A stretch of DNA of 64,000 nt. Origin: Hyphomicrobiales bacterium. Lineage in GTDB: Bacteria; Pseudomonadota; Alphaproteobacteria; Rhizobiales; Xanthobacteraceae. Made by a program: the position numbers and the translations under genes. The notes beneath the pieces are model-generated. The model was not told the DNA's origin, made no database searches, and saw only the letters and a list, made by a program, of their open reading frames with translations. Shown in pieces: positions 28,383 to 46,737 of the stretch (its first letter is position 1; every line of letters starts with the position of its first letter). The stretch spans positions 124,001 to 188,000 of the forward strand of contig JAFKKN010000003.1 in the NCBI GenBank assembly GCA_017305535.1, given 5' to 3'.

Positions 28383-29084
28383 ATGGATGCAAAGGTGGAG
28401 CCGCAACGTCAGGTTATGCGCCTCCGGGGCCGATCTTACGTTGCGTTCGTGTTCTCGCCGTTCATGCCGATCATGAACTGGCTTGAGGAGATCGACGCAA
28501 CGCTGGCGCATTCCCCTGGCTTTTTCGCGGGACGTCCGATCGTGCTCGATCTGTCGGCGGTCGAACTGAGTTCGCACGGGGTGGCGCATCTGGTTTCGAG
28601 CCTTGAGACGCGTGGCATTCGCGTTCTCGGTCTCGAAGGCATCGAGGCGGGTGGGCTCGATTCGAAATTGCCTCCGGTGCTGAGTGGCGGACGCGGTTGC
28701 GTCGTCGAGCAGGTCGAGCCGAAGAAGGTCGAAGTGCAGCCGCCGCCACCTGCGGCGCCGTCGCTGCTGCTGCGCAATCCGGTGCGGTCGGGGCAGCGGA
28801 TCGTCTTCACCGAAGGAGACGTCACCGTACTTGGCTCGGTCGGGTCCGGCGCGGAGATCGTCGCGGGCGGTTCGATCCACGTTTACGGAACGCTGCGCGG
28901 GCGAGCGATGGCCGGCATCAACGGCAATTCCGACGCGCGAATCTATTGCCAGAAGATCGAGGCCGAGTTGCTGGCCATCGATGGCTACTACCAGACCGCC
29001 GAGGACATCGGCGAAACGCTGCGCCGGCAGCCCGCACAGGCGTGGCTGGATGGCGACATCCTCAGAATCACGCCGCTGAACTAG
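28383..29084 (+). CDS. minC: Septum site-determining protein MinC
   Basis: 233 residues. The N-terminal MinC domain (about 1-105) is joined by a Pro-rich linker (PPPPAAPSL) to the C-terminal beta-helix domain with repeated GDVTVLGSVGSGAEIVAGGSI-like turns and the RGRAMAGINGN motif. MinC inhibits FtsZ assembly away from midcell and is recruited by MinD. It is the first gene of minCDE. Confidence 0.95.
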   Translation: MDAKVEPQRQVMRLRGRSYVAFVFSPFMPIMNWLEEIDATLAHSPGFFAGRPIVLDLSAVELSSHGVAHLVSSLETRGIRVLGLEGIEAGGLDSKLPPVLSGGRGCVVEQVEPKKVEVQPPPPAAPSLLLRNPVRSGQRIVFTEGDVTVLGSVGSGAEIVAGGSIHVYGTLRGRAMAGINGNSDARIYCQKIEAELLAIDGYYQTAEDIGETLRRQPAQAWLDGDILRITPLN

Positions 29085-29102
29085 CAAACAAGGGAGACAA
29101 TG

Positions 29103-29921
29103 ATGGCCAAAGTCTTGGTCGTGACATCAGGCAAGGGCGGCGTGGGAAAAACCACGTCGACGGCCGCGCTCGGCGCGGCGCTCGCGCAGCGGGGTGAGAA
29201 GGTCGTCGTGGTCGACTTCGATGTCGGCCTGCGCAATCTCGATCTCATCATGGGCGCGGAGCGGCGCGTCGTGTTCGATCTCATCAATGTGGCGCAGGGC
29301 GTTGCGAAACTCTCGCAGGCGCTGATCCGCGACAAGCGGCTCGAGAGCCTCTGGCTGCTGCCGGCGTCGCAGACGCGGGACAAGGACGCGCTGACTGATG
29401 AAGGCGTGCGCGACATTATCGCCGACCTGCGCACCAAGTTCGACTGGATCATCTGCGACAGCCCGGCCGGCATCGAGCGCGGCGCGACGCTGGCGATGCG
29501 CTACGCCGACGAGGCCGTCGTCGTTACCAATCCCGAAGTGTCGTCGGTGCGTGACGCCGATCGCATCATCGGCATGCTCGATTCCAAGACGGTGAAAGCC
29601 GAGAAGGGCGAGCAGCTCAAGAAGCATGTGCTGATCACCCGCTACGACACCAGCCGCGCGGCGCGTGGCGAGATGCTCAACATCGACGATATTCTGGAAA
29701 TCCTCGCGGTCCCGCTGCTGGGCATCATCCCCGAGAGCCAGGATGTCCTGAAAGCCTCCAACGTCGGGTCTCCGGTCACGCTGAACAATGCGTCGAGCAT
29801 GCCGGCCAGGGCTTATATCGACGCGGCGCGCCGCCTCAGCGGCGAGACGGTCGACATGGTGGTGCCGACCGAACAGCGCAGGGGATTCATGAATCGCCTG
29901 CTGGGACGGAGGGCGGCATGA
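29103..29921 (+). CDS. minD: Septum site-determining ATPase MinD
   Basis: 272-residue ParA-family ATPase with deviant Walker A GKGGVGKTT, VDFDVGLRNLDL and ICDSPAGIERGA. The C-terminal amphipathic membrane-targeting helix (RRGFMNRLLGRRA) is present. AGGGAG gives better spacing to the ATG at 29103 than to the one at 29100. It activates MinC at the membrane and oscillates with MinE. The stop overlaps the minE start (ATGA). Confidence 0.96.
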   Translation: MAKVLVVTSGKGGVGKTTSTAALGAALAQRGEKVVVVDFDVGLRNLDLIMGAERRVVFDLINVAQGVAKLSQALIRDKRLESLWLLPASQTRDKDALTDEGVRDIIADLRTKFDWIICDSPAGIERGATLAMRYADEAVVVTNPEVSSVRDADRIIGMLDSKTVKAEKGEQLKKHVLITRYDTSRAARGEMLNIDDILEILAVPLLGIIPESQDVLKASNVGSPVTLNNASSMPARAYIDAARRLSGETVDMVVPTEQRRGFMNRLLGRRAA

Positions 29922-30199
29922 GCATGAAACTCCTCAATCTGCTTCGTCGCCGCACCGGCTCCGCGCCGGTCGCCCGCGAGAGGCTGCAAATTCTGCTCGC
30001 GCACGAGCGCGGCCTGCGCAGCCAGCCCGATCTGCTCGGAATTCTGCGCGAGGAAATCCTCGCCGTGGTCTCGCGCCATGTGGTGCTCGATCCGGAGAAG
30101 GTGATCGTGCGGATGGACCGGGGCGACGCGGTGTCGACGCTTGAAGTCGACATCGAGATTCCCAACGGCTTCGAGAAGCGGTTGAAGGTCGCCAGTTAG
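29918..30199 (+). CDS. minE: Cell division topological specificity factor MinE
   Basis: 93 residues with an N-terminal membrane/MinD-binding segment (LLNLLRRR), the AHERG contact region, and the C-terminal topological domain ending in LEVDIEIP. It stimulates MinD ATPase and restricts MinCD to the poles. It overlaps minD by four bases. Confidence 0.95.
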   Translation: MSMKLLNLLRRRTGSAPVARERLQILLAHERGLRSQPDLLGILREEILAVVSRHVVLDPEKVIVRMDRGDAVSTLEVDIEIPNGFEKRLKVAS

Positions 30200-33062: not shown

Positions 33063-33548
33063 TTGGCGAAGTCGAGCGTGAAGAATTGGATCAAGCCGGG
33101 CGTGGATGGCGCTAATCTTGAGGTCGATGACTTCCTGAGCAAGCGTATCACCAGCCTCAGCGCGCTGTTGCTGCGCGTCAGCACGCGGCGTTATCTGCTT
33201 GAACACGAGATCAGCCTCCCCGAATGGCGTGCCTTGACGATATTGGTTCGCCTTGGCCCGGGGACGACGCGAGAGTTGCGCGATGCCTCGAAGATGGACA
33301 AGGGCCAGATGAGCCGGGCGCTGCTGGCGCTCGAAAAGCGCAAGCTGTTGCAGCGCAGCCAGGATGAAACGCACGAGTTGCGGCACGTGCTGCAAATCTC
33401 GGAGAAGGGTCTCCAGCTTTATCGGCGGATTATGCCGAATGCGCGCCGCGCCCAGGTGGCTTTGCTGAAGCAACTGACGATCGACGAACGCAGGACGCTC
33501 GATGTCGTGATCAACAAACTCATGGCGGCCGCGGAAGCGGACGGCTGA
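33063..33548 (+). CDS. MarR-family transcriptional regulator
   Basis: 161 residues from a TTG start at 33063 with GGGGAG six bases upstream. In-frame codons run back to 32889, but the N-terminal extension is unlike MarR proteins. The winged helix is seen in LPEWRALTILVRLGPGTTRELRDASKMDKGQMSRALLALEKRKLL (read as consecutive helices), followed by the wing RHVLQISEKG. It is followed after 22 bases by the tautomerase gene, which it probably controls. Confidence 0.85.
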   Translation: MAKSSVKNWIKPGVDGANLEVDDFLSKRITSLSALLLRVSTRRYLLEHEISLPEWRALTILVRLGPGTTRELRDASKMDKGQMSRALLALEKRKLLQRSQDETHELRHVLQISEKGLQLYRRIMPNARRAQVALLKQLTIDERRTLDVVINKLMAAAEADG

Positions 33549-33570: not shown

Positions 33571-33915
33571 GTGCCCCATATCGTTTGTCATTATGCGCGT
33601 GACCAGAACATGCCGCCGATCCGCGACGTGCTGTCCATGCTGCACCGGGTGGCGGCGTCGACCAGCATCGTTAAAGCCGAGGACCTCAAGAGCCGGGCGC
33701 AGGCTTTCGATGACTATCTGATTGCAGGCGAGCGAAAATCGTTCTTCCACGTCTCGTTCTATCTGCTCGCCGGGCGCACGCTGGCGCAGAAGGAGCGGCT
33801 CAGCATTGAGCTCCGGCAAGCGATGGCGGAGATGATGCCGGAAGTCCACAGCATCAGCATCGACATCCGCGATATGGACCCCGATGCCTACAAGAAGCGG
33901 CTGTTGCCGGATTGA
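33571..33915 (+). CDS. 5-carboxymethyl-2-hydroxymuconate isomerase-family tautomerase
   Basis: 114 residues from a GTG start. The N terminus (V/M)PHIVCHYARD leaves Pro-1 after Met removal, the catalytic base of tautomerase-superfamily enzymes, and the length matches CHMI (HpcD) at 115-126. CHMI isomerises a ring-cleavage product in homoprotocatechuate degradation. No other hpc genes are visible, so a related keto-enol substrate is possible. It shares an operon with MarR. Confidence 0.75.
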   Translation: MPHIVCHYARDQNMPPIRDVLSMLHRVAASTSIVKAEDLKSRAQAFDDYLIAGERKSFFHVSFYLLAGRTLAQKERLSIELRQAMAEMMPEVHSISIDIRDMDPDAYKKRLLPD

Positions 33916-33982
33916 GAGGGCGAGGGAAGGTCCCGAACGCGTCCGACAGAAATCGTTCCTGGTAGAAGTGCCACACGAAAAT

Positions 33983-34116
33983 CGTCGTCCCCGCGCAGGC
34001 GGGGACCCAGAACCCCTGACGGCTGTGATCTTGCGAGGCTGTTCATCAAAGTCGATGAGCGCCGCCCGCCTCACAAGCGACACGGCGTATGGGGCCCCGC
34101 CTGCGCGGGGACGACG
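33983..34116. repeat. Palindromic intergenic repeat, copy 2
   Basis: Same outer arms as copy 1 (CGTCGTCCCCGCGCAGGCGG at 33983 on, and the reverse complement at 34092-34116), but with a different inner sequence of about 83 bases. It is preceded by CACACGAAAAT, the same leader as copy 1. It sits between the convergent tautomerase and IclR genes. Confidence 0.8.
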
Positions 34117-34181
34117 GTGAGAATGGTTCTTTGCTTCGTCGCGAAACACGAATCCAGATGCTCCTCGCAATGACGAGGCGC

Positions 34182-34979
34182 CTACACCAGCAACGGCTTC
34201 GCAGCTTCCGACATCTCTTTCAGCAACGGCAGGAAGCGGGCGATCATCTCATCGGTGCCGATGCGGTCGACATGGGCGCCGATATTGGCGGCGGCGACGA
34301 TGCCGCCGTCGTAGCGCTGGATCGGGACCGAGATCGAGCGGAAGCCTGGTTCGGCCTCGCGATCCACCAGCGAATAGCCTTGAGCGCGATCGGCGATGAC
34401 GGTGGCGATCACCGCGGCCTTGTCGGTCACGGTGTTCGGCGTCAGCGCCGTCAGCCGCGCGGCCTTGATCGTCTTGGTCAACACCTCGTCCGACAACCGT
34501 CCAAGCAGCACGCGTCCGACCGAGGTGCAGAACGCCGGCAGCCGATAGCCGATATCGATGCCGGCGGAAAACACCCGCGCCGGACTGGCGCGGGCGACGA
34601 ACACCGCCTCCCCGTCGTCGAGGATCGCCAGCGAGCAGACTTCTTTCGCCTTGGCCGACACGTCGTCCATCAGCGGTTGCATCACGCTGCTGATCTGGTT
34701 CGAGGCGAGATAGGCCGAGGCGAGCGTCAGGATGCGCGGCGTCAGCGAGAACAGCCGCTCGTCGCCGACGACGAAACCGGCCTTGATCAGCGTGTGCAGG
34801 ATGCGCCGCACCGTGGCGCGCGGCAGGTCGCAGGCTTTCGCGATGTCGCTCAGCGTCATGGGCCGGTGATCGGCGCCGAACGACTGGATCACACGCAAGC
34901 CGCGATCAAGGCTTTCGATGACTTCCGGGCCGTCGCGTCTGGCCTGCTGTTCGTCCGTGGTGCGCTTGAGTTTGGGCAT
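34182..34979 (-). CDS. IclR-family transcriptional regulator (PcaR/PobR-like)
   Basis: 265 residues from MPKLKRTTD at 34979; the long in-frame extension to 35255 is not IclR-like. An N-terminal winged helix (VIESLDRGLRVIQSF, LSDIAKACDLPRATVRR) is followed by the IclR effector domain, including YRLPAFCTSVGRVLLG and GYSLVDREAEPGFRSISVP. Members of this branch regulate aromatic catabolism and usually activate a divergent promoter. It is divergent from the Rieske oxygenase operon. Confidence 0.9.
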   Translation of the reverse strand: MPKLKRTTDEQQARRDGPEVIESLDRGLRVIQSFGADHRPMTLSDIAKACDLPRATVRRILHTLIKAGFVVGDERLFSLTPRILTLASAYLASNQISSVMQPLMDDVSAKAKEVCSLAILDDGEAVFVARASPARVFSAGIDIGYRLPAFCTSVGRVLLGRLSDEVLTKTIKAARLTALTPNTVTDKAAVIATVIADRAQGYSLVDREAEPGFRSISVPIQRYDGGIVAAANIGAHVDRIGTDEMIARFLPLLKEMSEAAKPLLV

Positions 34980-35193
34980 ACGGGCCGTTGCCGTCCGTTG
35001 GGGTGTCGATCGCGGTGAGGGGATCACGAATCGCGCGATTATGCACCAGCGCGACGCGGCCGTCGCATCGCGGCCGACGAAGAGTGCGTGCCGCACCCCC
35101 CGAAACCATCGCCCGCCGCGACGAACGACCGGATTGGAAATCGGGCTTGCGTCTGCTCCAATCTGGAGGCACTCTAAATCAAATCGGACGTTT

Positions 35194-35208
35194 GTTCGCC
35201 TATCGAAC
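35194..35208. promoter_or_regulatory. Probable IclR operator
   Basis: GTTCG-CCTAT-CGAAC is a perfect 15-base palindrome in the gap between the IclR gene and the divergent Rieske operon, about 65 bases before the Rieske start. It has the 15-base GTTCG...-type layout I recall for PcaR sites in pseudomonads, so IclR binding here is likely. Confidence 0.55.
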
Positions 35209-35272
35209 GAGGCGAGACGAGGAAGCCTGAGGCCGAGGGGCAGGCCCTGCGGCACCGGAGGAGAACGCCATC

Positions 35273-36631
35273 ATGATGAGCCAGCAGCAGAACGATCTCA
35301 TCACCCTGACCGGTCCCGGCACCGCTTGCGGCAAGCTGATGCGGATGTACTGGCAGCCCGCCGCGCTGGTCGACGAATTGGAAGGCGAGCGGCCGATCAA
35401 GCCCGTCACCCTGCTCGGCGAAAAGCTGGTGCTGTTTCGCGACGAAAGCGGCCGCTACGGCCTGATGGACCGGCACTGCCCGCATCGCGGCGCCGACCTC
35501 GCTTTCGGCCGTCTCGAAGACGGCGGCGTGCGCTGTTCGTTCCATGGCTGGCTGTTCGATGTCGACGGCCAGTGCCTCGAGACGCCGGCGGAGCCGGCTG
35601 GCTCGGTGCTGTGCAAGAACATCAAGCAGCGCGCTTATCCGGTGGTCGAGAAGGGCGGCATCCTGTGGGCCTATATGGGCGAGGGCGAGCCGCCGGCATT
35701 CCCGGAGATCGATTGCTTCGCCGCGCCGGACGCCTACACCTTCGCCTTCAAGGGTCTGATCGAATGCAACTGGTTGCAGGCGCTGGAGGTCGGTATCGAT
35801 CCCGCGCACGCGTCATTCCTGCATCGCTTCTTCGAGGACGAAGACCCGACCGCCGCTTACGGCAAGCAATTCCGCGGCGCCTCCGCCGACAGCGAAATGC
35901 CGATGACCAAGGTGCTGCGCGAATACGATCGCCCGATCATCAATGTCGAGCAGACCGAATACGGCCTGCGGCTGATCGCGCTGCGCGAGATCGATAGCGA
36001 GCGCACCCACGTCCGCGTCACCAATCAGCTGTTCCCGCACGCCTTCGTCATTCCGATGAGCACCGAGATGACGATCACGCAGTGGCACGTGCCGGTGGAT
36101 GACACTCATTGCTACTGGTACGCGATCTTCACCAGCTACGGCGCGCCGGTGGACAAGCAGAAAATGCGCGACCAGCGCCTCGAACTCTATGAGCTGCCGG
36201 ACTATGTCTCGCGCAAGAACAAGTCGAACGATTACGGCTTCGATCCGCACGAGCAGGCGACCGAAACTTACACCGGCATGGGCACCGACATTAATGTGCA
36301 CGACCAGTGGGCGGTGGAGTCGATGGGCGCGATCCAGGATCGCACCAAGGAACACCTCGGCCAGTCCGACAAGGCGATCATCCAGTATCGCCGCCTGCTG
36401 CGGCAGGAGATCGAGAAAGTCTCGTCCGGCGGCAAGCCGTTCATGTTCCTCGACGCCGCCAACGCCCGCAGCATTCAGGGGCCGGCTACCATGGACGGCA
36501 TCGGGCCGACGCGGGGCTGGGAGATATACTGGATGGAAGTCGACGTGAAGCGGCGGCGCGGCGCGCCGTGGACGGCGGCGGTGCCGTCGGATATCGCCAA
36601 AAAGGCCCCGCACCTCGCGGCCGCCGAATAA
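35273..36631 (+). CDS. Rieske non-haem iron oxygenase, terminal oxygenase alpha subunit
   Basis: 452 residues of the phthalate-dioxygenase/VanA-like single-subunit type. The Rieske cluster ligands are C69 and H71 (CPHRGA) with C88 and H91 (CSFHGW). The mononuclear iron His residues are H179 and H184 in GIDPAHASFLH. GGAGGAG precedes the start (ATG at 35273 or 35276). No beta subunit, ferredoxin or reductase gene is adjacent, so electrons come from elsewhere. It could hydroxylate a ring or oxidatively demethylate or dealkylate an amine. First gene of the operon. Confidence 0.92.
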   Translation: MMSQQQNDLITLTGPGTACGKLMRMYWQPAALVDELEGERPIKPVTLLGEKLVLFRDESGRYGLMDRHCPHRGADLAFGRLEDGGVRCSFHGWLFDVDGQCLETPAEPAGSVLCKNIKQRAYPVVEKGGILWAYMGEGEPPAFPEIDCFAAPDAYTFAFKGLIECNWLQALEVGIDPAHASFLHRFFEDEDPTAAYGKQFRGASADSEMPMTKVLREYDRPIINVEQTEYGLRLIALREIDSERTHVRVTNQLFPHAFVIPMSTEMTITQWHVPVDDTHCYWYAIFTSYGAPVDKQKMRDQRLELYELPDYVSRKNKSNDYGFDPHEQATETYTGMGTDINVHDQWAVESMGAIQDRTKEHLGQSDKAIIQYRRLLRQEIEKVSSGGKPFMFLDAANARSIQGPATMDGIGPTRGWEIYWMEVDVKRRRGAPWTAAVPSDIAKKAPHLAAAE

Positions 36632-36667
36632 GCCTCACGCTGCGCGATTTCAGCAAAGGGAATTGTC

Positions 36668-38104
36668 TTGAGTTTCGTCAGAAAGCACGGCCTCTGGTCC
36701 GATGAGCAGCACGAGGCCGCGATCCGTTTGGCGCGGATGGTCGAGGAGCAGCAGCTGGAAACCGTCCGGCTGTCGTTTCCGGATCAACACGGCATCCTGC
36801 GCGGCAAGACATTGATTGCCGGCGAGGCGGTGCGGTCGCTGGAAAGCGGGTGCAGCATCACCACCACGATGCTGGCGAAGGACACGTCGCACAAGACGGT
36901 GTTTCCGGTGTTCACCGCCGGCGGTGGTTTCGGCATGACCGAAATGCAGGGCGCCGCCGACGTGTTGATGGTGCCCGATCCCACCACCTTCCGCGTGCTG
37001 CCGTGGGCGCCCGCGACCGGCTGGGTGATGTGCGATCTCTATTTCGCCGACGGCCGCCCGGTGCCGTTCGCGACGCGCGGCTTCTATCGCTCGGTGCTGG
37101 AGAAGCTCGCCGCGCGCGGCTACGAGTTCATGGCCGGGCTCGAGGTTGAGTTTCACATCTTCCGTCTCGCCGATCCGAAGATGCAGCCGCACCATGCCGG
37201 GCAGCCGGGCGAACCGCCAGACGTGACGCTGCTGTCGCACGGCTATCAGTATCTCACCGAACAACGCTACGACATGATGGAGCCGGTGCTGGAAGTGCTG
37301 CGGCGCGACGTCATGGCGCTCGGCCTGCCGCTGCGCTCGATGGAGGTCGAGTACGGCCCGAGCCAGTGCGAATTCGTGTTTCAGCCGACCGTCGGCCTCG
37401 CGCCGGCGGACACCATGGTGCTGTTTCGCAGCGCGGTGAAGCAGATCGCGCGCCGTCACGGTTGCCACGCCACCTTCATGTGCCGCCCGCGCATCCCCAA
37501 CGTGATGTCGTCGGGCTGGCATCTGCATCAGTCGCTGGTGTCGACCACAACCGGCGAGAACGCCTTCATGTCGAAGGTGGAGGGCGAGCCGCTGTCGCCG
37601 CTCGGCAAGCATTATCTCGCCGGCCTGCTCGATCATGCCCGCGCCGCCACTGTGTTCACCACGCCGACCATCAACGGCTACAAGCGCTATCGTTCCTATT
37701 CGCTGGCGCCGGATCGCGCGATCTGGGGCCGCGACAATCGCGGCGTGATGCTGCGCGTGCTGGGCGGCCCGAACGATCCGGCGACGCGATTGGAAAACCG
37801 CGTCGGCGAGCCGGCGGCGAATCCGTATCTCTACATGGCGTCGCAGATTCTCTCCGGCCTCGACGGCGTCGACCGCAAGCTCGATCCCGGCCCCGATGCC
37901 GACACGCCCTACGAGACCAAGGCCAGCCTGCTGCCGAAATCGCTGCGCGAAGCGGTGTTCGCGCTCAAGGACGATCCGTTCTTCCGCGAGGCGATGGGCG
38001 CCGAGCTTGTCGACTACTACGTTTTTATCAAGAATGCCGAGATCGACCGTTTCCAGGCCGAAGTGACGGAATGGGAGCAGCGCGAGTACTTCGAGATGTT
38101 TTGA
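36668..38104 (+). CDS. Glutamine synthetase-like gamma-glutamyl-amide ligase
   Basis: 478 residues from a TTG start with AAAGGGAA upstream. Glutamine-synthetase fold metal and ATP residues are visible: E159/E161 (GLEVEF), E228 and E235 (EVEYGPSQCEF), H285/H287 (SGWHLHQ) and the NGYKRYR block. It lacks the DLSDTFE-like hallmark and adenylylation loop expected of nitrogen-assimilating GlnA. Such GlnA-like enzymes ligate glutamate to amines (aniline, isopropylamine, putrescine). Following the Rieske gene by 36 bases, it probably glutamylates the amine substrate of this operon. Confidence 0.85.
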   Translation: MSFVRKHGLWSDEQHEAAIRLARMVEEQQLETVRLSFPDQHGILRGKTLIAGEAVRSLESGCSITTTMLAKDTSHKTVFPVFTAGGGFGMTEMQGAADVLMVPDPTTFRVLPWAPATGWVMCDLYFADGRPVPFATRGFYRSVLEKLAARGYEFMAGLEVEFHIFRLADPKMQPHHAGQPGEPPDVTLLSHGYQYLTEQRYDMMEPVLEVLRRDVMALGLPLRSMEVEYGPSQCEFVFQPTVGLAPADTMVLFRSAVKQIARRHGCHATFMCRPRIPNVMSSGWHLHQSLVSTTTGENAFMSKVEGEPLSPLGKHYLAGLLDHARAATVFTTPTINGYKRYRSYSLAPDRAIWGRDNRGVMLRVLGGPNDPATRLENRVGEPAANPYLYMASQILSGLDGVDRKLDPGPDADTPYETKASLLPKSLREAVFALKDDPFFREAMGAELVDYYVFIKNAEIDRFQAEVTEWEQREYFEMF

Positions 38105-38178
38105 TGCACGCGGACCCACACAAACGACCCGCGGCGTGCCATAACCACAACGACACAAAAACACGGAGAGGGAGTGCG

Positions 38179-39354
38179 ATGAAAAAATCAGCAACATTGC
38201 TGTCGGCGGCTGTCGCCATCGGCCTGATGACCGGCGGCGCGTCGGCGGACGTGATCAAGGTCGGCGTGATCGGCACGATGTCCGGGCCCTACGCGCTGTT
38301 CGGCAAGAACTTCAAGATGGGCATCGACGCCTGGGTCGCCGAGCACGGCAACAAGGTCGGTAATCACACGGTCGAATTCATCTATCGCGACGAGGAATCG
38401 CCCAACCCGGCGAAGTCCAAGGCGCTGGCGCAGGAATTGCTGGTCAAGGACAAGGTGCAGTATCTCGCTGGCGTCTATTTCACGCCGGACGCGATGGCGA
38501 TCGCGCCGCTGCTGGACGAATCCAAGACGCCGCTGGTGGTGATGAACGCCGCCACTTCCGCCATCGTGCAGAAGAGCCCCTATATCGTGCGCACCTCGTT
38601 CACGATGTGGCAGAACACCGTGCCGGCCGCCAAGGTTGCCAAGACTAACGGCTCCAAGAAGGTCGCCATCGCGGTGAGCGATTACGGCCCGGGCCTCGAC
38701 GCCGAAGCGGCTTTCAAGAAGACCTTCGAGGCCGAGGGCGGTCAGGTGGTGGAAGCTATCCGCATGCCGCTCAACACCACGGACTTCGGCCCGATCATGC
38801 AGCGCATCAAGGATTCCGGCGCCGACACCATCTTCACGTTCCTTCCCGCCGGTCCGCCGACGCTGGGCTTCGTCAAGGCGTATATCGACAACGGCCTCAA
38901 GGCCGGCGGCGTCAAGCTGATGTCCACCGGCGACGTGGTGACCGAGCCCGACCTGCCGACCATCGGCGACGCTGGCATCGGCATCCTCTCGACCTATCAC
39001 TATTCGGTGTCGCACGACTCGCCGGAGAACAAGGCGTTCCTTGCGCAGATCGTGAAGGACGGCGGCAAGCTCGACGAAGTCACCATGACGTCGGTAGCGG
39101 CCTATGACGGCGCGCGCGTCATCTACAAGATGATCGAGGCGACCGACGGCAAGCGCGATCCGGCGAAAGCGGTCGATGCGGTCAAGGGCATGAAGTGGGT
39201 CAGTCCGCGCGGCCCGGTGTCGATCGATCCGGACACCCGGCACATCCGCCAGAACGTCTATCTGCGCACGGTCGAGAAGGTCGACGGCAAATTGATCAAC
39301 AAGGAGATCAAGACCTTCGAGGCGCAGCCCGACTGGGCCTTGAGCAGCAAGTAA
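38179..39354 (+). CDS. ABC transporter periplasmic substrate-binding protein (LivK type)
   Basis: 391 residues with a signal peptide (MKKSATLLSAAVAIGLMTGG, cleavage near ASA) and the type I binding fold start IKVGVIGTMSGPYALFG. It should capture the compound for the LivHMGF system encoded after the amidohydrolase. GGAGAGGGAG gives a strong ribosome site. A GT-rich hairpin follows the stop, a common arrangement that keeps binding protein in excess over the permeases. Confidence 0.92.
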   Translation: MKKSATLLSAAVAIGLMTGGASADVIKVGVIGTMSGPYALFGKNFKMGIDAWVAEHGNKVGNHTVEFIYRDEESPNPAKSKALAQELLVKDKVQYLAGVYFTPDAMAIAPLLDESKTPLVVMNAATSAIVQKSPYIVRTSFTMWQNTVPAAKVAKTNGSKKVAIAVSDYGPGLDAEAAFKKTFEAEGGQVVEAIRMPLNTTDFGPIMQRIKDSGADTIFTFLPAGPPTLGFVKAYIDNGLKAGGVKLMSTGDVVTEPDLPTIGDAGIGILSTYHYSVSHDSPENKAFLAQIVKDGGKLDEVTMTSVAAYDGARVIYKMIEATDGKRDPAKAVDAVKGMKWVSPRGPVSIDPDTRHIRQNVYLRTVEKVDGKLINKEIKTFEAQPDWALSSK

Positions 39355-39398
39355 CGCTGACGCATGTAACGGCTCCCGTTCTCGCGGCGGTTCGCTTT

Positions 39399-39433
39399 TC
39401 CACACGCCCCAGCCTCATGTGTGGGTGTGTGGA
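39399..39433 (+). terminator. Intra-operon hairpin after substrate-binding protein gene
   Basis: TCCACACGCCC (39399-39409) pairs with GGGTGTGTGGA (39423-39433), 11 base pairs with one G-T. It lies between the binding-protein stop and the amidohydrolase start, and there is no T run. It is more likely an mRNA stabiliser or partial terminator than a full stop. Confidence 0.5.
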
Positions 39434-39508
39434 GGACGTGGATCGCCGGGAGGTACGGGAGCTTCACGTTTCCCGACGAACCGCACTTCACCACGTCAGG
39501 ATTGTCTT

Positions 39509-41149
39509 GTGATCGATCGCGCGGGCTCGCTGCGGCTCATCAACGGACGGATCTATCGCTTCGCCGCGGATCGCTCCCCGGCGGAAGCCGTGGTCGTGCG
39601 CGACGGCAAGGTGGCGTGGGTCGGTGCGACGCGCGACGCGCCCGCCGCCGCCGACACCATCGACTTGCAGGGCGCGACCGTGCTGCCCGGCCTCACCGAC
39701 GCGCATATTCATCTGTTCGCGATCGCTTACGGGCGGTTGCTGGTCCCGCTCGGCCGTGCCCATGCGGCATCGGTGGGAGATGTTGTCGCGCGTATCAGGG
39801 CACAGGCGGCCACGACGCCGAAGGGCGAATGGGTGCACGCGGCGGAGTTCGACGAAAATCATCTCGCCGAACACCGTTATCCGACCCGCGACGAACTCGA
39901 TGCCGCGATCCCGGATCATCCGGTGCTGATCCGCCGCTTCTGCGGCCACATCGCCATCGTCAACGGCGCGGCGTTACGCGCGCTCGAGATCGACGAGGGC
40001 ATCTCCGAGGTACAGGGCGGCGTGTTCGGCCGCGGCGCGGATGGCCGCCTCGACGGCAGCGCCACCGAAGCCGCCGCCGAATTGATCTTCCGCCGCCTGC
40101 CGCCGATCAGCCACGCGACGCTGGCGCAGTCGCTGCATGCCACCATCGACGATTGTCTGCGCATGGGAATGACGGCGGCGGTGGAAGCCGCGGTGGGGTT
40201 CACCAGCGGCTTCGACGAGGAGTTCGCGGTGTGGCGGGTGGCGCGCGGCGACAGCGTGCATCTGCCGATGCGGCTCGGCTTCATGCATCAGCTCGATCCG
40301 GAGGAGGCGGTCGCGCGCGGGCTCGTGCCGACGCGCGATCCGGACTGGCAGGAGATGACGCTGAAATTCTTCGCCGACGGCATCGTCGGCGGACGCACCT
40401 CCGCTGTCAGCGAAGACTATTGCGATACGCCGACGCGCGGCTTCTTCATGCGGCCCGAAGCCGACCTGAAACGCGTCATCGTCGCTGCGCATGAGGCCGG
40501 CTGGCAGGTCGCGGTGCATGCCACCGGCGACCGCGCGGTGGCGTGCGTGATCGATGCGTACGAGGCCGGGCAGGGGCGCGTGGCATGGCCCGACCCGCGC
40601 CATCGCATCGAGCACTTCTTCTGCCCGCCGCGCGATGGTTTTGCGCGGATGCAGCGGCTCGGCGCGCTGATCGTGATGCAGCCGAGCTTTCTCACCCGGA
40701 TGCGCCGCTCCATCGAGCAGGCGTTCGGGCCGCGCCGCCACGACAAGTATCCCGGCCGCTCCGCGCTTGCCGCCGGCGTTCATTACGTTGCCAGTTCCGA
40801 CGCGCCCACCGGCCTGACCTCGCCATGGGCCGGCATGGCCGATGCGGTGGATCGCGGTTTGCCCGATGGCGAGCCGATCGGCCCGAACGAGGCACTGACC
40901 CCGCGCGAGGCCGTCGCGGCCTATATCCATGGCGGCGCCTATGCGATGAAGCAGGAGAGCTGGCGCGGCGTGCTGGCGCCGGGCATGGCGGCCGACCTGA
41001 TCGTGCCGGATCGCGATCCGTTGACCGATGCTGCGCCTGACCTTCGCGGCGTCAACGTGCTAATGACCATGGTTCGCGGCGTGATCCATCACGACGCGGC
41101 CTTTTCACGAGCCGGCCGCAACGCTGTCGCGCCGGCGGGACGCGTGTGA
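39509..41149 (+). CDS. YtcJ-type amidohydrolase (amidohydrolase family 3)
   Basis: 546 residues from a GTG start at 39509 (CAGGA upstream); the in-frame run to 39419 overlaps the hairpin and is rejected. The N-terminal small beta domain (LINGRIYRF, GKVAWVGATRDA) leads to metal motif DAHIHL. Later elements are HATGDRAV, RIEHFFC and SSDAPTG, and the C terminus has APGMAADLIV. It hydrolyses a C-N bond of an amide, carbamate or cyclic amide. It could deglutamylate the product or open a ring. It overlaps the next permease gene by four bases. Confidence 0.88.
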   Translation: MIDRAGSLRLINGRIYRFAADRSPAEAVVVRDGKVAWVGATRDAPAAADTIDLQGATVLPGLTDAHIHLFAIAYGRLLVPLGRAHAASVGDVVARIRAQAATTPKGEWVHAAEFDENHLAEHRYPTRDELDAAIPDHPVLIRRFCGHIAIVNGAALRALEIDEGISEVQGGVFGRGADGRLDGSATEAAAELIFRRLPPISHATLAQSLHATIDDCLRMGMTAAVEAAVGFTSGFDEEFAVWRVARGDSVHLPMRLGFMHQLDPEEAVARGLVPTRDPDWQEMTLKFFADGIVGGRTSAVSEDYCDTPTRGFFMRPEADLKRVIVAAHEAGWQVAVHATGDRAVACVIDAYEAGQGRVAWPDPRHRIEHFFCPPRDGFARMQRLGALIVMQPSFLTRMRRSIEQAFGPRRHDKYPGRSALAAGVHYVASSDAPTGLTSPWAGMADAVDRGLPDGEPIGPNEALTPREAVAAYIHGGAYAMKQESWRGVLAPGMAADLIVPDRDPLTDAAPDLRGVNVLMTMVRGVIHHDAAFSRAGRNAVAPAGRV

Positions 41150-42018
41150 CCATGCAGACGATCCTGAGCATCGGCCTCGACGGCATTTCCTACGGCATGG
41201 TGCTGTTCATCATCTCCATCGGCCTGTCGATCATGATGGGGCTGATGCGGGTGGTGAATCTCGCGCACGGCGCGTTCGCCATGATCGGCGGCTATCTCGC
41301 CTCCTATGCGATGCGCGATCTCGGCGCCGGCTACGCGCTCGCCATCGTGGTTGCGGTGATCGGCACCATCATCATCTCGATCCCGCTGGAAATCCTGCTC
41401 TATCGCCGCATCTACCGGAAGTCCGACGCGCTGACGCAATTGCTGCTGACCATCGGCATCACCTTCGTCATCATCGGCCTCGCCAATTTCATCTTCGGGC
41501 CGACGCTCAAAGCGATCCCGTTGCCGAACGCGTTGAGCGGCCCGCTCGACATCGGCTTCCGCATGATTCCGACCCATCGCGTCTTCGTCATCGTCTGCGG
41601 CGTGATCACCGCGCTGGCGCTGTGGCTTCTGATCGACAAGACCGAATTCGGCATCCGGCTGCGCGCGTCGGTCGATAACAGCGACATGGCGGATTCGCTC
41701 GGCATCCGCACCGAATGGATTTATGCGGCGACCTTTGCCTTGGCGGTCGGCCTCGGCGCGTTCGGTGGCGTGGTCGGCGCGGAATTGCTGCCGATCGAAC
41801 CGTTCTACGCGCTGCGCTACATGGTGACGTTCCTCGTCGTCGTCTCGGTCGGCGGCGCGGGCTCGATCGCCGGCGCGCTCGCGGCCTCGCTGCTGCTCGG
41901 CCTTGCCGATACGACGGGAAAGTATCTCGCGCCGGAATACGGCGAGTTCTTCTTCTATCTCGCGGTGATTGTCATCGCCTTCCTGTTCCCTCGCGGACTG
42001 TTCGGGCGGGCGCATTGA
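41146..42018 (+). CDS. ABC transporter permease LivH-type
   Basis: 290-residue inner-membrane permease of the branched-chain amino acid family with about eight hydrophobic segments and the conserved MRVVNLAHGAFAMIGGY and GGAGSIAGALAASLLLG blocks. The GTG start overlaps the amidohydrolase stop (GTGA); ATG at 41152 is an alternative. It works with LivM and the two ATPases below. Substrate specificity comes from the binding protein at 38179. Confidence 0.93.
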   Translation: MTMQTILSIGLDGISYGMVLFIISIGLSIMMGLMRVVNLAHGAFAMIGGYLASYAMRDLGAGYALAIVVAVIGTIIISIPLEILLYRRIYRKSDALTQLLLTIGITFVIIGLANFIFGPTLKAIPLPNALSGPLDIGFRMIPTHRVFVIVCGVITALALWLLIDKTEFGIRLRASVDNSDMADSLGIRTEWIYAATFALAVGLGAFGGVVGAELLPIEPFYALRYMVTFLVVVSVGGAGSIAGALAASLLLGLADTTGKYLAPEYGEFFFYLAVIVIAFLFPRGLFGRAH

Positions 42019-42019
42019 C

Positions 42020-43017
42020 ATGACTGGCCTGTCCACATTGGCGAAGACCTCCGACCGCGCCTTTCCGTTCGCCGCCGAACTGATGGGCATCGTCTCCATT
42101 GCCGCGCTCGGCGTGCTTGGTTTCCTGCTGTTTCCCGACGACCTCGCGTTCCTGACGCGGCTGATCGGCATCACGCTGCTGGTGCTGTCGCTCGATCTCG
42201 TTACCGGCTATTGCGGCGTCGCCACGCTCGGCCACGCCGCGCTGTTCGGCGTCAGCGCCTACGCGGTCGGCAATGCCTGCATCGGTGGCATCCGCGAACC
42301 GATCCTGCTGCTCGGCGTCGGCATCGTCGCCGGCACCATCACGGGCGCGATTTCCGGCGCGCTGATCACGCGGTTTCGCGGGCTGCCGCAACTGGTGCTG
42401 TCCATCGCCATCGGGCAACTGGTCGCAGCCCTTGCCAACAAGCTGTCGTCGGTGACCGGCGGCAGCGATGGCCTGTCCGGGATCACGCCAGATCCGGTGC
42501 TGGGGTTGTTCCGTTTCGATATGTACAGCCGCACCGCGTTCGTGTTCTCGCTGGTCGTGCTCGCCGTCGTCTTCGTGCTGCTGCTGCGCTTCGTGCGCTC
42601 GCCGTTCGGGTTGTTATGTCGGGGCATTCGCGACGACGACCTGCGCGCGCAGATGATCGGCGCGATGGTCTATCCGCGCCTTGTCATCATGTATGCCGTG
42701 TCGGGCGCGGTGGCCGGCGTCGGCGGCGCGTTGAACGCGATGACGGCGGGTGTGGTCGGCCTCGACAGCGTCTCGTTCGAGCGCTCCGCCGAAGTGCTGG
42801 TGATGCTGGTGCTCGGCGGCGCGGGCAATCTGTGGGGCGCGTTGTTCGGCTCGGTGGTGTTCCAGATTTTTGAGCACATCGTCTCCGCCACCAATCCGTT
42901 CCACTGGATGACGCTGGTGGGTCTGTTGCTGATCGCCATTGTGCTGTTCGCGCCGCGCGGCCTCTCGCACGGCGTCGCGGTGCTGTGGTCGAAAATTTTC
43001 AGGCGAGGAGGGCGGGC

Positions 43018-43021
<4 letters not shown>
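42020..43021 (+). CDS. ABC transporter permease LivM-type
   Basis: 333 residues starting at ATG 42020 (GGGCGGG upstream, two bases after the livH stop). It has about nine membrane segments, YCGVATLGHAALFGVSAYAVG and the GGAGNLWGALFG loop typical of LivM. It pairs with the LivH-type permease. The stop overlaps the LivG-type start (ATGA). Confidence 0.93.
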
Positions 43022-43762
<741 letters not shown>

Positions 43763-43782
<20 letters not shown>

Positions 43783-44476
43783 GGTCGCTGGCCTGAGCGC
43801 CGGATATGGGCCGACCCAGATCGTGCAGAACATCACCTTCGATGTTCCGGCCGGCGGGCGGCTCGCCATTCTCGGCCGCAACGGCGTCGGCAAGACCACG
43901 CTGCTTGCGACGCTCATGGGGTTGTCAACGCGCCATGCCGGCAGCGTGCGCATCGGCGATGTCGACATCACGCGCCGCCGCACCTCGGCGCGGGCGCTGG
44001 CCGGCGTCGGCTACGTGCCGCAAGGTCGCGACGTGTTCGCGTCCCTCACGGTCGAGGAAAATCTCGCCACCGGATTGAAGGGGCGTGGGCGTGCCGCGTT
44101 GGCCGAGGCTTACGAGATGTTTCCGCGTCTTGGCGAACGGCGCCGGCATCTCGGCGGACAACTCTCCGGCGGCGAACAGCAGATGCTGTCGATGGCGCGC
44201 ACCATGCTGGGCAAGCCGTCGCTGCTGTTGCTCGACGAACCGCTGGAGGGGCTGGCGCCGGTGATCTGCGACGAGTTGATGGCCATGATCACGCGGCTGG
44301 CGTCCTCCGGCGACGTCACCGTGGTGCTGGTCGAACAGCAGATCGAGCGCGCACTCGATTTCGCCGATCGTGTGCTGATCCTCGAACGCGGCCGCGAAGT
44401 CTGGTCAGGCGCACCGGACGCGCTGCGCGCCGATCGCGCTTTGATCGAGCGCTTGCTCGGTGTGGGGATTCATTGA
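43763..44476 (+). CDS. ABC transporter ATP-binding protein LivF-type
   Basis: 237 residues with Walker A GRNGVGKTT, YVPQGRDVFASLTVEEN, signature LSGGEQQ and LLLLDEPLEGLAP. GGAG gives eight-base spacing to the ATG at 43763, better than the ATG at 43757. It overlaps the LivG-type gene by about 20 bases, completing the operon that starts at the Rieske gene. Confidence 0.92.
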
Positions 44477-44513
44477 GCGGCACGTTATGCGCGCGACATC
44501 GCGACAAATTCGG

Positions 44514-44634
44514 CGTCGTCCCCGCGCAGGCGGGGACCCATACGCCGCAGCGGTTCGGCTCCATCACCAAGGCGAGTTTATTTTTATAACAACCAACGCC
44601 AGGGATTCCGGGTCCCCGCCTGCGCGGGACGACG
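44514..44634. repeat. Palindromic intergenic repeat, copy 3
   Basis: Same design as copy 1: arms at 44514-44539 and 44610-44634, with the inner sequence CGCAGCGGTTCGGCTCCATC, then AGTTTATT and ATAACAACCAA, shared almost base for base with 30608-30729. The right arm has lost one G. It is located between the convergent LivF-type and luciferase-like genes. Confidence 0.82.
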
Positions 44635-44647
44635 GTTTTCGGGAGTG

Positions 44648-45628
44648 CTACCGCATCGCCTGCGCGATCAGTTCGAACGAATGCAGCCGTGCGGTGTGAT
44701 CGAAGATATCGGAGACGATCATCAATTCGTCGGCGGCAGTTTGTTCGACGAGGCTGGCTGCGTTCGCGCGCACCGTCTCGAGATCGCCGACGATGGTGCA
44801 TGCGAGCATCTGCGCCACCTGCGCTTTTTCCATCGGCGTCCAATAGGTTTCGATGTCGTCGATCGGCGGCTTGCTGAGGCCGCGTGTGCCACGGAAGATG
44901 TTGGTGAACGACATCTGCTGCGTGGTGGCGAGCCGCTTTGCTTCAGCATCCGTATCGGCCGCGATGATGTTGACGCCGACCACGGCATAAGGCTTCGCCA
45001 GTTGCGCGGAGGGTTTGAAGCGCGCGCGATAGATTTCCAGCGCCGGGATCAATTGCGCCGGCGCGAAGTGCGAGGCGAACGCGTAAGGCAGGCCGAATTC
45101 GGCCGCGACCTGCGCGCCGTAGGTCGAGGAGCCGAGGATCCACAGCGGCACATGGGTGCCCGCCGCCGGCACTGCCTGGATGCGCTGGCCCGGCGCGATG
45201 TCGGCGAAGTAGGCCTGCAATTCCAGCACGTCGTGCGGAAAGTTGTCGCTGTTGGTCAGGCTGCGGCGCAGCGCCTGCATGGTCAGTTGATCGGTGCCGG
45301 GCGCGCGGCCGAGCCCGAGATCGATGCGGCCGGGAAACAGCCGTTCCAGCGTGCCGTAATGTTCGGCGATGACGATCGGCGCATGGTTCGGCAGCATCAC
45401 GCCGCCGGCGCCGACGCGGATGTGCTTGGTGCCGGCGGCGATGTGAGCGATGGCCACCGAGGTCGCGGCGGAGGCGATGCCGGCCATGTTGTGATGCTCG
45501 GCCACCCAGAAGCGGGTATAGCCCCAGCCTTCCGCATGGGCGGCGAGATCGCGGGCATTGTCGAGCGCGCCGCGCGCATCGGTCGCCTCGGTGACGCGAA
45601 CGAGATCGAGAATCGAATAGGGGACCAT
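44648..45628 (-). CDS. Luciferase-like flavin-dependent monooxygenase (MsnO8-type LLM)
   Basis: 326 residues from MVPYSILDL at 45628; the extension to 45835 runs through a repeat. The bacterial-luciferase TIM barrel is indicated by [44 protein letters not shown] and [10 protein letters not shown]. Such enzymes use reduced flavin and oxygen to oxidise diverse organics. It is convergent with the uptake operon, so a link to that pathway is only by proximity. Confidence 0.88.
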
Positions 45629-45756
45629 CGCGAATTCCGTGAAGGTATCCTGCGGAGCCGCAGAGAGGAGGTGTGTCTCCCATCTAGGCATGCCGCGCGA
45701 AAATTGCACGCGCGCCGGTCGCAATATTGTTATGCGCGGATTGGCAACACGAAAAT

Positions 45757-45917
45757 CGTCGTCCCCGCCAACGGGTCGGCGCGAAGCGCCGCCCGATGAC
45801 AGGCTCCGGCGGGGACCCATTACCCCCGGCTTCAATTATTGCTGTAAGCGCGGACAACAAACGTTTTTCGTATCACGGCGGCTGCGGAGTCTGGGTCCCC
45901 GCCTTCGCGGGGACGAC
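45757..45917. repeat. Palindromic intergenic repeat, copy 4, with enlarged left arm
   Basis: The left arm begins CGTCGTCCCCGCC but its small loop is replaced by about 37 bases containing another hairpin (GGGTCGGCGCG...CGCCGCCCGATG), then closes with GGCGGGGACCC. The right arm at 45893-45917 is standard. It is a composite element within the 320-base gap between the LLM and SDR genes, which holds no gene. Confidence 0.72.
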
Positions 45918-45948
45918 TCTGAGATAACGCCGTTGTGTCGGTCCAACG

Positions 45949-46737
45949 CTACCCGTTCTTGCCCTCCCGGCGCAGCGTCGGCAGGCCGATGCCGGCGGCG
46001 TCGAAGCCGCCGTCGACCGCGAGTAACTGCCCGGTGATGTAGCTCGCGCGTTCGCTGCACAGGAAGAAGATCGCCTCCGCCAGTTCGTCCTCCAGCCCGT
46101 AACGGTTGAGCGGAATGGCGTCGTGATAGTCGGCGCGGATCGCCGGCGAGTGCACGGCCTTGGCCATCGCGGTATCGACCGGCCCCGGCGCCACCGCGTT
46201 GACGCGGATGCCGAGCGAGGCGAGCTCGACCGCCGCCTGCTTGGTGAGGTGTGCGAGCCCAGCCTTGCTGGTGCCGTAGGCGACACGCAATGTCGAGGCG
46301 CGCAGCCCGGAGATCGAGGTGATGTTGACGATGGCGCCGCCGCCGTGTTCGCGCATCAAGGGTGCCGCCGCCTTGATACAGAGGAACGGCCCGGTGAGGT
46401 TGACCGCGAGCACGCGGTCCCATTCGTCGTCGGCGGTTTCCAGAATCGGCTTGAACACCGCGACGCCGGCATTGTTGACCAGCGCGTCGAGGCGGCCGAA
46501 GCGCTCCATGATCCGCGCCATCGCGGCGTTCACTGCTTTGGCGTCGGAGACGTCGCAATGCAGCGTCAGCACGTTGACCGGATCGGCGAGAGACGCGGCG
46601 GCTTCGCGCAACTGCGCATCCTCGATATCGATCAGCGCGACGGCCCAATCCTCGGCGAGAAAGCGTTTCGCGGTGGCGAGGCCGATGCCGCGCGCGGCGC
46701 CGGTAATCAGCGCGACTTTGGTGATGCTGGTGGTCAT
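45949..46737 (-). CDS. SDR-family NAD(P)-dependent oxidoreductase
   Basis: 262 residues with TGAARGIG (about 13-20), ALVNNAG, Ser in VNITSISG, AYGTSK (YxxxK) and a C-terminal YITGQLLAVDGG. It has the conserved fold and catalytic triad, but the substrate is unknown. It is transcribed on the same strand as the LLM gene but separated from it by a repeat, so it is probably independently expressed. Confidence 0.9.
   Translation of the reverse strand: MTTSITKVALITGAARGIGLATAKRFLAEDWAVALIDIEDAQLREAAASLADPVNVLTLHCDVSDAKAVNAAMARIMERFGRLDALVNNAGVAVFKPILETADDEWDRVLAVNLTGPFLCIKAAAPLMREHGGGAIVNITSISGLRASTLRVAYGTSKAGLAHLTKQAAVELASLGIRVNAVAPGPVDTAMAKAVHSPAIRADYHDAIPLNRYGLEDELAEAIFFLCSERASYITGQLLAVDGGFDAAGIGLPTLRREGKNG

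Follow-up and report, generated by a model that had tools for sequence, protein, structure and literature searches.

A Rieske oxygenase and glutamine synthetase-like ligase operon in a Hyphomicrobiales bacterium, with p-aminobenzoate as its probable substrate

Background

Which compound is served by an operon that joins a Rieske oxygenase and a glutamine synthetase (GS)-like ligase to a complete Liv-type transporter? The question is raised by a stretch of 64,000 nucleotides (the window) from a Hyphomicrobiales bacterium of the Xanthobacteraceae (contig JAFKKN010000003.1, positions 124,001 to 188,000), in which positions 35273-44476 hold a close-packed series of genes on one strand, encoding in order the Rieske oxygenase, the GS-like ligase, a periplasmic substrate-binding protein (SBP), an amidohydrolase, LivH, LivM, LivG and LivF. 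An earlier note, made from the sequence of the window, had read this series and its divergent IclR regulator as a candidate undescribed amine pathway. Here we narrow the substrate from an amine to a carboxylated aniline, most likely p-aminobenzoate, and propose that the operon imports p-aminobenzoate (4-aminobenzoate), or a para-carboxylated aniline very close to it, and oxidises its ring, a reading to which we assign a probability of about two in three. The genes, their orthology, their synteny and their co-occurrence are seen directly, and from these we infer the substrate and the reactions.

p-Aminobenzoate is the ring amine of folate and a folate precursor. It is also the carboxylate twin of sulfanilate (4-aminobenzenesulfonate), and evidence from the transporter, the ring-cleavage genes and the regulator points to the carboxylate. 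If this is true, it suggests a natural job for an enzyme pair known from the breakdown of an industrial dye chemical, sulfanilate, gives a substrate to a gene that nearly half of the genomes sampled from a large family carry (92/198), and links the turnover of a folate precursor to the protocatechuate pathway. The enzyme pair is of a known kind and stands in a new operon setting; what is new is the evidence on its natural substrate, which is good but circumstantial.

Aerobic growth on p-aminobenzoate is described for Alcaligenes aquatilis QD168, for which the responsible genes were not identified by the authors in the sections of PMC6460240 drawn on here (all articles are cited for such sections), and growth on it is also reported for Cupriavidus metallidurans CH34 (PMC8879955). 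A modelled 4-aminobenzoate pathway via 3-oxoadipate is present in all Ralstonia strains of PMC10470067. In the open-licence literature searched, we found neither a gene-level aerobic route for p-aminobenzoate nor a paper tying the genes of this operon to it.

Results and discussion

The oxygenase and the ligase form a stable pair

The oxygenase alpha subunit (35273-36631, plus strand; PF00355 and PF19301, LigXa_C) has its Rieske motif at residue 69 and an iron site formed by D176, H179 and H184; its structure model was poor (mean pLDDT 42) and was not used. It is followed by the predicted amine-glutamate ligase (36668-38104, plus strand; PF00120, Gln-synt_C, 271.9 bits), whose TTG start is uncertain. 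To follow the two genes elsewhere we used the best 80 loci of a genome-contig scan, in which 568 of the 595 pattern matches listed turned out to code for a relative. An oxygenase match lies less than 2 kb upstream of the ligase and on the same strand in 79 of these 80 related loci, some of which are cut by contig ends, and in the single locus without it the ligase is only 118 bp from the contig end. A pairing kept in 79 of 80 loci is not due to chance. Among 61 relatives, the window genome included, a ligase of at least 48% identity was found in 19 genomes, the remaining matches being at most 36% identical; the 1.5 kb flank of the ligase holds the oxygenase in 18 of them, and the exception (G015) carries it on another contig. 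The oxygenase occurs in 92 of the 198 family genomes sampled (E <= 1e-130), spanning 22 of 47 genera, and in 21 of 398 genomes sampled phylum-wide (E <= 1e-100).

The other members of the operon vary among the 80 loci, with a window-type SBP in 21, the amidohydrolase in the same position in 16, the isomerase described below in 17, a reductase in 17, a ferredoxin in 6 and pcaHG in 7, so that the pair itself appears as the stable unit; an IclR match stands beside it in 70. That the full gene order forms a universal operon was rejected, since a window-type SBP occurs in only 21 loci and a different, oppositely oriented Liv system in 54.

The architecture is also not undescribed, as the earlier note had supposed. 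The sad operon of Hydrogenophaga intermedia PBC, found through transposon mutagenesis, joins the Rieske gene sadA, named 4-aminobenzenesulfonate 3,4-dioxygenase, to the GS-like sadB and the ferredoxin gene sadC, with no beta subunit named in that description (SadA and SadB of this strain are WP_009515254 and WP_009515256); the operon also occurs in Hydrogenophaga strains presumed to have been little exposed to xenobiotics, and its authors thought that it had probably served, at first, a natural compound resembling sulfanilate (PMC5632844). A second sulfanilate degrader is Novosphingobium resinovorum SA1 (PMC5632844, PMC7142613). Our comparison with sad was made through the plasmid pair of SA1, and strain PBC was likened by the published gene descriptions. 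SadA is a single-subunit oxygenase, and sadD encodes a reductase. The SA1 plasmid pSA3 carries an orthologous pair (oxygenase 83% and ligase 74% identical to the window copies) about 40 kb from sca-type genes of the 4-sulfocatechol pathway, which encode a PcaHG pair and a 4-sulfomuconolactone hydrolase scoring 607 bits against a cut-off of 500. An isomerase (64% identical to the window copy) directly follows the ligase, genes for a reductase and a ferredoxin are close by, and what remains of the amidohydrolase is a stretch of 59 residues at 63% identity. The pair on pSA3 presumably performs the first step of sulfanilate breakdown in SA1. Like the sad operon and pSA3, the window places a Rieske oxygenase directly with a GS-like gene, and like the sad operon as described it has no beta subunit; the window differs in that its operon lacks the ferredoxin and reductase, but has a Liv transporter and an amidohydrolase.

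We also observed on pSA3, the plasmid of a sulfanilate degrader (loci L114 and L191), a folP gene, encoding dihydropteroate synthase, an enzyme that uses p-aminobenzoate, together with bioD and a biotin aminotransferase gene, all of them no more than about 15 kb away from the pair.

The ligase groups with enzymes that glutamylate aromatic amines

The window genome encodes two GS-domain proteins, one of which (473 bits) groups with E. coli GlnA, the other being the operon ligase. In a maximum likelihood tree of 49 proteins the ligase lies in a group of 35 rows (support 100/100) together with NpaA1, the ligase of pLME1, which we take to be a chloroaniline plasmid, and ligases of SA1, Methylobacterium and Bradyrhizobium. 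The GlnA of the window genome, E. coli GlnA and PuuA all fall outside this group; for PuuA and GlnA, whose branches are long, the program warns of possible misplacement. True GlnA or PuuA identity is ruled out by this tree, and the clustering with true GlnA that the earlier note had named as fatal to its reading did not occur; its judgement that the protein is not GlnA-like was sound. Of the references that it had suggested for such a phylogeny, the aniline type and PuuA are in the tree, and the ligase groups with the former; IpuC, a GS-like protein that glutamylates amines, is outside it. The best match of the ligase in the PDB is also NpaA1 (8wwu, 7e-136), the enzyme that glutamylates 1-naphthylamine (PMC11335346). 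Identity is 46% to NpaA1, 51% to the pLME1 ligase and 28% to PuuA, which is likewise GS-like and glutamylates amines (PMC11335346) but is distant in the tree. By its grouping and its amine-binding glutamates the ligase falls with the aromatic-amine glutamylating type represented by NpaA1, within the class of organic-amine glutamyl ligases (GoaS, PMC11335346), and its activity is predicted only.

Alignment to NpaA1 suggests where its specificity may differ. The amine-binding glutamates E232 and E234 (NpaA1 numbering, checked on seven residues) are retained. At the position of F75, lysine is found in all 17 oxygenase-paired ligase rows and phenylalanine in all three aniline-type rows; position 80 is lysine or arginine in 16 of the 17 and has no basic residue in the three, and position 206 is arginine in 16 of the 17 versus histidine in the three. 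These changes concern the loop of the neighbouring subunit that lines the ring in NpaA1. Because this loop is basic where the aniline-type loop is aromatic, we infer a pocket that would fit, and may be built for, an anionic ring substituent.

The layout also sets the operon apart from aniline pathways. The ligases of AtdA1-A5, TdnQ, DcaQ and NpaA1-A5 share the 35-row group with the window ligase, but they are only 46-51% identical to it, and for the aniline and naphthylamine systems the reference plasmids encode an oxygenase of alpha and beta subunits along with a glutamine amidotransferase-like protein. Neither an oxygenase beta subunit nor a glutamine amidotransferase is encoded at 33571-44476 or present among ten proteins scanned against Pfam, so that the earlier note was right to set this layout apart from the known aniline one. 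As the ligase stands apart from GlnA and the layout differs from that of aniline pathways, the substrate is likely to be an amine, which is what the note had inferred.

The binding protein is related to aromatic acid binding proteins

The SBP (38179-39354, plus strand; Peripla_BP_6) matches PDB entries 4f06 (2.6e-212) and 4evs (8e-209). According to the entry titles, 4evs shows RPA0985 bound to 4-hydroxybenzoate, whereas 4f06 shows RPB_2270 of R. palustris HaA2 bound to a ligand, presumably p-hydroxybenzoic acid. The protein in 4f06 is itself encoded in an orthologous operon: locus L185 has the order IclR, Rieske oxygenase, GS-like ligase, SBP and LivHMGF, with an oxygenase 85% and a ligase 81% identical to the window copies, and its SBP agrees with 4f06 at 369 of 370 aligned residues, the first residue excepted. 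The window SBP is 81% identical to the L185 copy and thus has the high identity expected among RPA0985-type aromatic acid binding proteins of Rhodopseudomonas. RPA0985 shows a thermal shift of 29.5 C with 4-hydroxybenzoate, interacts also with salicylate, and is classed among proteins for benzenes bearing a single carboxyl group (PMC3223731). p-Aminobenzoate differs from 4-hydroxybenzoate in having NH2 in place of OH. In related loci with other transporters, the SBP of the other Liv system in L011 is nearest to 4evq (9e-55) and a Polaromonas SBP is nearest to 4ey3 (7e-109), both solved with 4-hydroxybenzoate according to their entry titles; these matches, for which random Liv proteins were not compared, only hint at aromatic acids too.

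The remaining transporter parts are all on the plus strand and comprise the LivH-type (41152-42018) and LivM-type (42020-43021) permeases, both with PF02653 (BPD_transp_2), the LivG-type ATPase (about 43018-43782; PF00005, ABC_tran, and PF12399) and the LivF-type ATPase (43757-44476; PF00005), the end gene of the run.

Regulator and ring-cleavage genes point to protocatechuate

The divergent IclR regulator (34182-34979, minus strand; PF01614 and PF09339, ATG start) passes TIGR02431, the model for PcaR, PcaU and PobR, with 310 bits against a cut-off of 284.75. In seven of the 80 related loci, all from Afipia, pcaH and pcaG lie downstream of livF, and in L006, the only one scored, both products are above the TIGR02422 and TIGR02423 cut-offs. 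The window genome carries pcaG-pcaH-pcaF on its chromosome, and the L006 PcaH shares 88% identity with the PcaH encoded there and 58% with the sca PcaH of SA1. Across the 198 family genomes, counted without regard to kinship, pcaH or an above-cut-off ligA is present in 90 of the 92 oxygenase-bearing genomes versus 52 of the 106 without the oxygenase (odds ratio 47), and a catechol 1,2-dioxygenase (E <= 1e-60) in none of the 92 versus 14 of the 106. Genes for a nitroreductase and a DUF4863 protein lie near the pair in Methylobacterium nodulans and Caballeronia insecticola; DUF4863 is presumably the 4-hydroxylaminobenzoate lyase of 4-nitrobenzoate breakdown.

Proposed pathway

In the scheme that we propose, the SBP and LivHMGF would import p-aminobenzoate, as suggested by relatives that bind 4-hydroxybenzoate, and the ligase would attach a gamma-glutamyl group to the para amine at the expense of ATP, in the manner of NpaA1. 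Glutamylation is placed first because in naphthylamine and aniline pathways the GS-like ligase acts first on the amine, which in its free form is not a substrate of the oxygenase (PMC11335346). The Rieske oxygenase would then dioxygenate carbons 3 and 4 of the gamma-glutamyl conjugate, yielding protocatechuate, with electrons coming from a ferredoxin and a reductase encoded elsewhere in the genome; neither was matched within the window. In the aniline pathway the nitrogen is released as glutamine, and here too it would probably leave in this form. Protocatechuate would enter the beta-ketoadipate route via the chromosomal pcaG, pcaH and pcaF, and the PcaR/PobR-type IclR protein would regulate the operon, probably by sensing a related aromatic acid.

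The amidohydrolase (39509-41149, plus strand, start uncertain; Amidohydro_3, YtcJ-type, PF07969 at 6.6e-80) has an HxH metal motif and obtained no name above cut-off in an NCBIfam scan. Its role may be to release the amine from an amide ahead of glutamylation, or else to remove the glutamyl group. A bolder version of the proposal, possible in our view but doubtful, is that the operon is dedicated to the breakdown of p-aminobenzoate and of amides containing it, such as products of folate breakdown, with the amidohydrolase freeing p-aminobenzoate, that Bradyrhizobium, Afipia and Rhodopseudomonas commonly have it, and that it is the natural parent of the sulfanilate-degrading systems.

Alternative substrates and opposing evidence

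Much of the evidence for p-aminobenzoate would fit another carboxylated aromatic amine, such as 3-aminobenzoate, an amino-hydroxybenzoate or an N-acyl aminobenzoate that the amidohydrolase would open, a reading which we consider unlikely. The protocatechuate link, the carboxylate-binding protein and the basic ligase pocket are compatible with any of these, 3,4-dioxygenation of 3-aminobenzoate would likewise yield protocatechuate, and the amidohydrolase of 16 loci suggests an amide form; however, RPA0985 is strongly stabilised by a para-substituted ligand (29.5 C with 4-hydroxybenzoate), and the name of sadA denotes a para amine. Sulfanilate as substrate, with 4-sulfocatechol as product as in the sad operon, is a good deal less probable. 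The ortholog pair shares pSA3 with a 4-sulfomuconolactone hydrolase and a PcaHG pair, and a sulfanilate-degrading Bradyrhizobium is cited in PMC5632844, but the hydrolase is above cut-off in none of the 198 family genomes (weaker relatives occur in 150, that of the window genome at 40%), the Afipia operon PcaH is much closer to that of the window genome than to that of SA1, and it is unlikely that 92 of 198 genomes keep the oxygenase for the sake of a synthetic sulfonate. On the absence of the hydrolase and the PcaH identities we rejected sulfanilate as the natural substrate in the main interpretation.

We give very little credence to a non-amine aromatic acid such as 4-hydroxybenzoate, with the GS-like protein doing something else. 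The close SBP relative does bind 4-hydroxybenzoate, yet 79 of 80 loci keep the ligase with the oxygenase, loci with a different transporter included, and the ligase retains its amine-binding glutamates. Least credible is aniline or chloroaniline, with catechol as product: the similarity of the ligase to NpaA1 and the pLME1 ligase favours it, but the beta subunit and the amidotransferase are missing, the pocket loop is basic and not aromatic, the catechol 1,2-dioxygenase model is absent from the oxygenase-bearing genomes, and the transporter is of an acid-binding type. The aniline layout was rejected on these genes.

Several observations weigh against p-aminobenzoate as well. The SBP relative is known with 4-hydroxybenzoate (and salicylate), not with p-aminobenzoate, for which binding is not reported in the sections of PMC3223731 drawn on here, the main text of which contains no occurrence of the string 'aminobenzo'. 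The sca PcaH of SA1 also passes TIGR02422 (335 bits), so that this model, which does not separate protocatechuate from sulfocatechol enzymes, cannot alone fix the substrate. Kinship is ignored in the co-occurrence counts, half of the genomes without the oxygenase also carry a protocatechuate-cleaving gene, and two oxygenase-bearing genomes (G503 and G532) have neither pcaH nor an above-cut-off ligA, although other oxygenase-bearing genomes in the genus of G532 do carry ligA. In the ligase tree, the sister order of the window ligase group and NpaA1 is weakly supported (80/61). The different Liv system of 54 loci is found mostly in Bradyrhizobium, and five further loci have no Liv system in sight. 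Ferredoxin and reductase genes adjoin the pair in some relatives and not here, where the candidates in the genome are 44% (ferredoxin) and 42% (reductase) identical, and the small isomerase has no place in the proposed scheme.

Variation among related clusters

Clusters of Polaromonas and Caballeronia consist of a GntR regulator, oxygenase, ligase, ferredoxin and reductase, plus an amidotransferase or a gamma-glutamyl hydrolase. An exception to the pair layout is a plasmid of Nitratireductor sp. OM-1 (L117), with an oxygenase of 83% and a ligase of only 52% identity on the opposite strand, adjoined by a Rid-family hydrolase gene; creatininase, cytosine deaminase and hydantoinase genes are also in the vicinity. 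The Tardiphaga oxygenase gene has immediately upstream of it another amidohydrolase gene belonging to the same Pfam family, the product of which bears an apparent signal sequence (L069, 6873-8564), and a second Amidohydro_3 gene directly upstream of the oxygenase is also seen in L057, L074, L082, L177 and L184. In a Bradyrhizobium locus (L011, 11467-21104) the pair stands beside opposite-strand genes for a mandelate racemase-like protein, a Liv system, a flavin reductase, a fumarylacetoacetate hydrolase and a two-cupin protein, a group that is perhaps a gentisate-type pathway.

Gene limits and neighbouring genes

All genes named in the earlier note are present as open frames, with the families that it gave, above the Pfam cut-offs. 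Its gene positions stand in general, with corrections for the IclR gene, which spans 34182-34979 and does not reach 35255, the SBP, which starts at 38179, and LivG, which starts at about 43018. Its list covered the run 35273-44476 and omitted a small gene at about 33571-33915 (plus strand) for a CHMI-family isomerase-like protein (5-carboxymethyl-2-hydroxymuconate isomerase-like, tautomerase type; PF02962, 4.2e-8), in which the proline after the start codon is retained and for which the NCBIfam scan gave no match. This gene is the tenth of the cluster, because its 64% relative directly follows the ligase on pSA3 and it is kept in 17 of the 80 related loci.

By its position between divergent genes, the 293 bp gap between the regulator and the oxygenase (34980-35272) is the likely operator and promoter region; its palindromes are short, and a promoter scan of this gap did not find the sigma-70 consensus. 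At the right end, flavin monooxygenase-like and short-chain dehydrogenase/reductase (SDR) genes (44648-46737, minus strand; SDR at 45949-46737) appear to lie outside the unit of the operon. The flavin protein had no match in any locus compared, and the SDR had matches of 30-44% plus one of 65% in L161 (12629-13387, genome G336), 2.7 kb upstream of the oxygenase. To the left, a MarR regulator gene (33078-33548) precedes the small isomerase, with copies of 81-83% conservation at L003, L004 and L033, which are near loci, and the division-site genes for MinC, MinD and MinE are found at 28449-30199.

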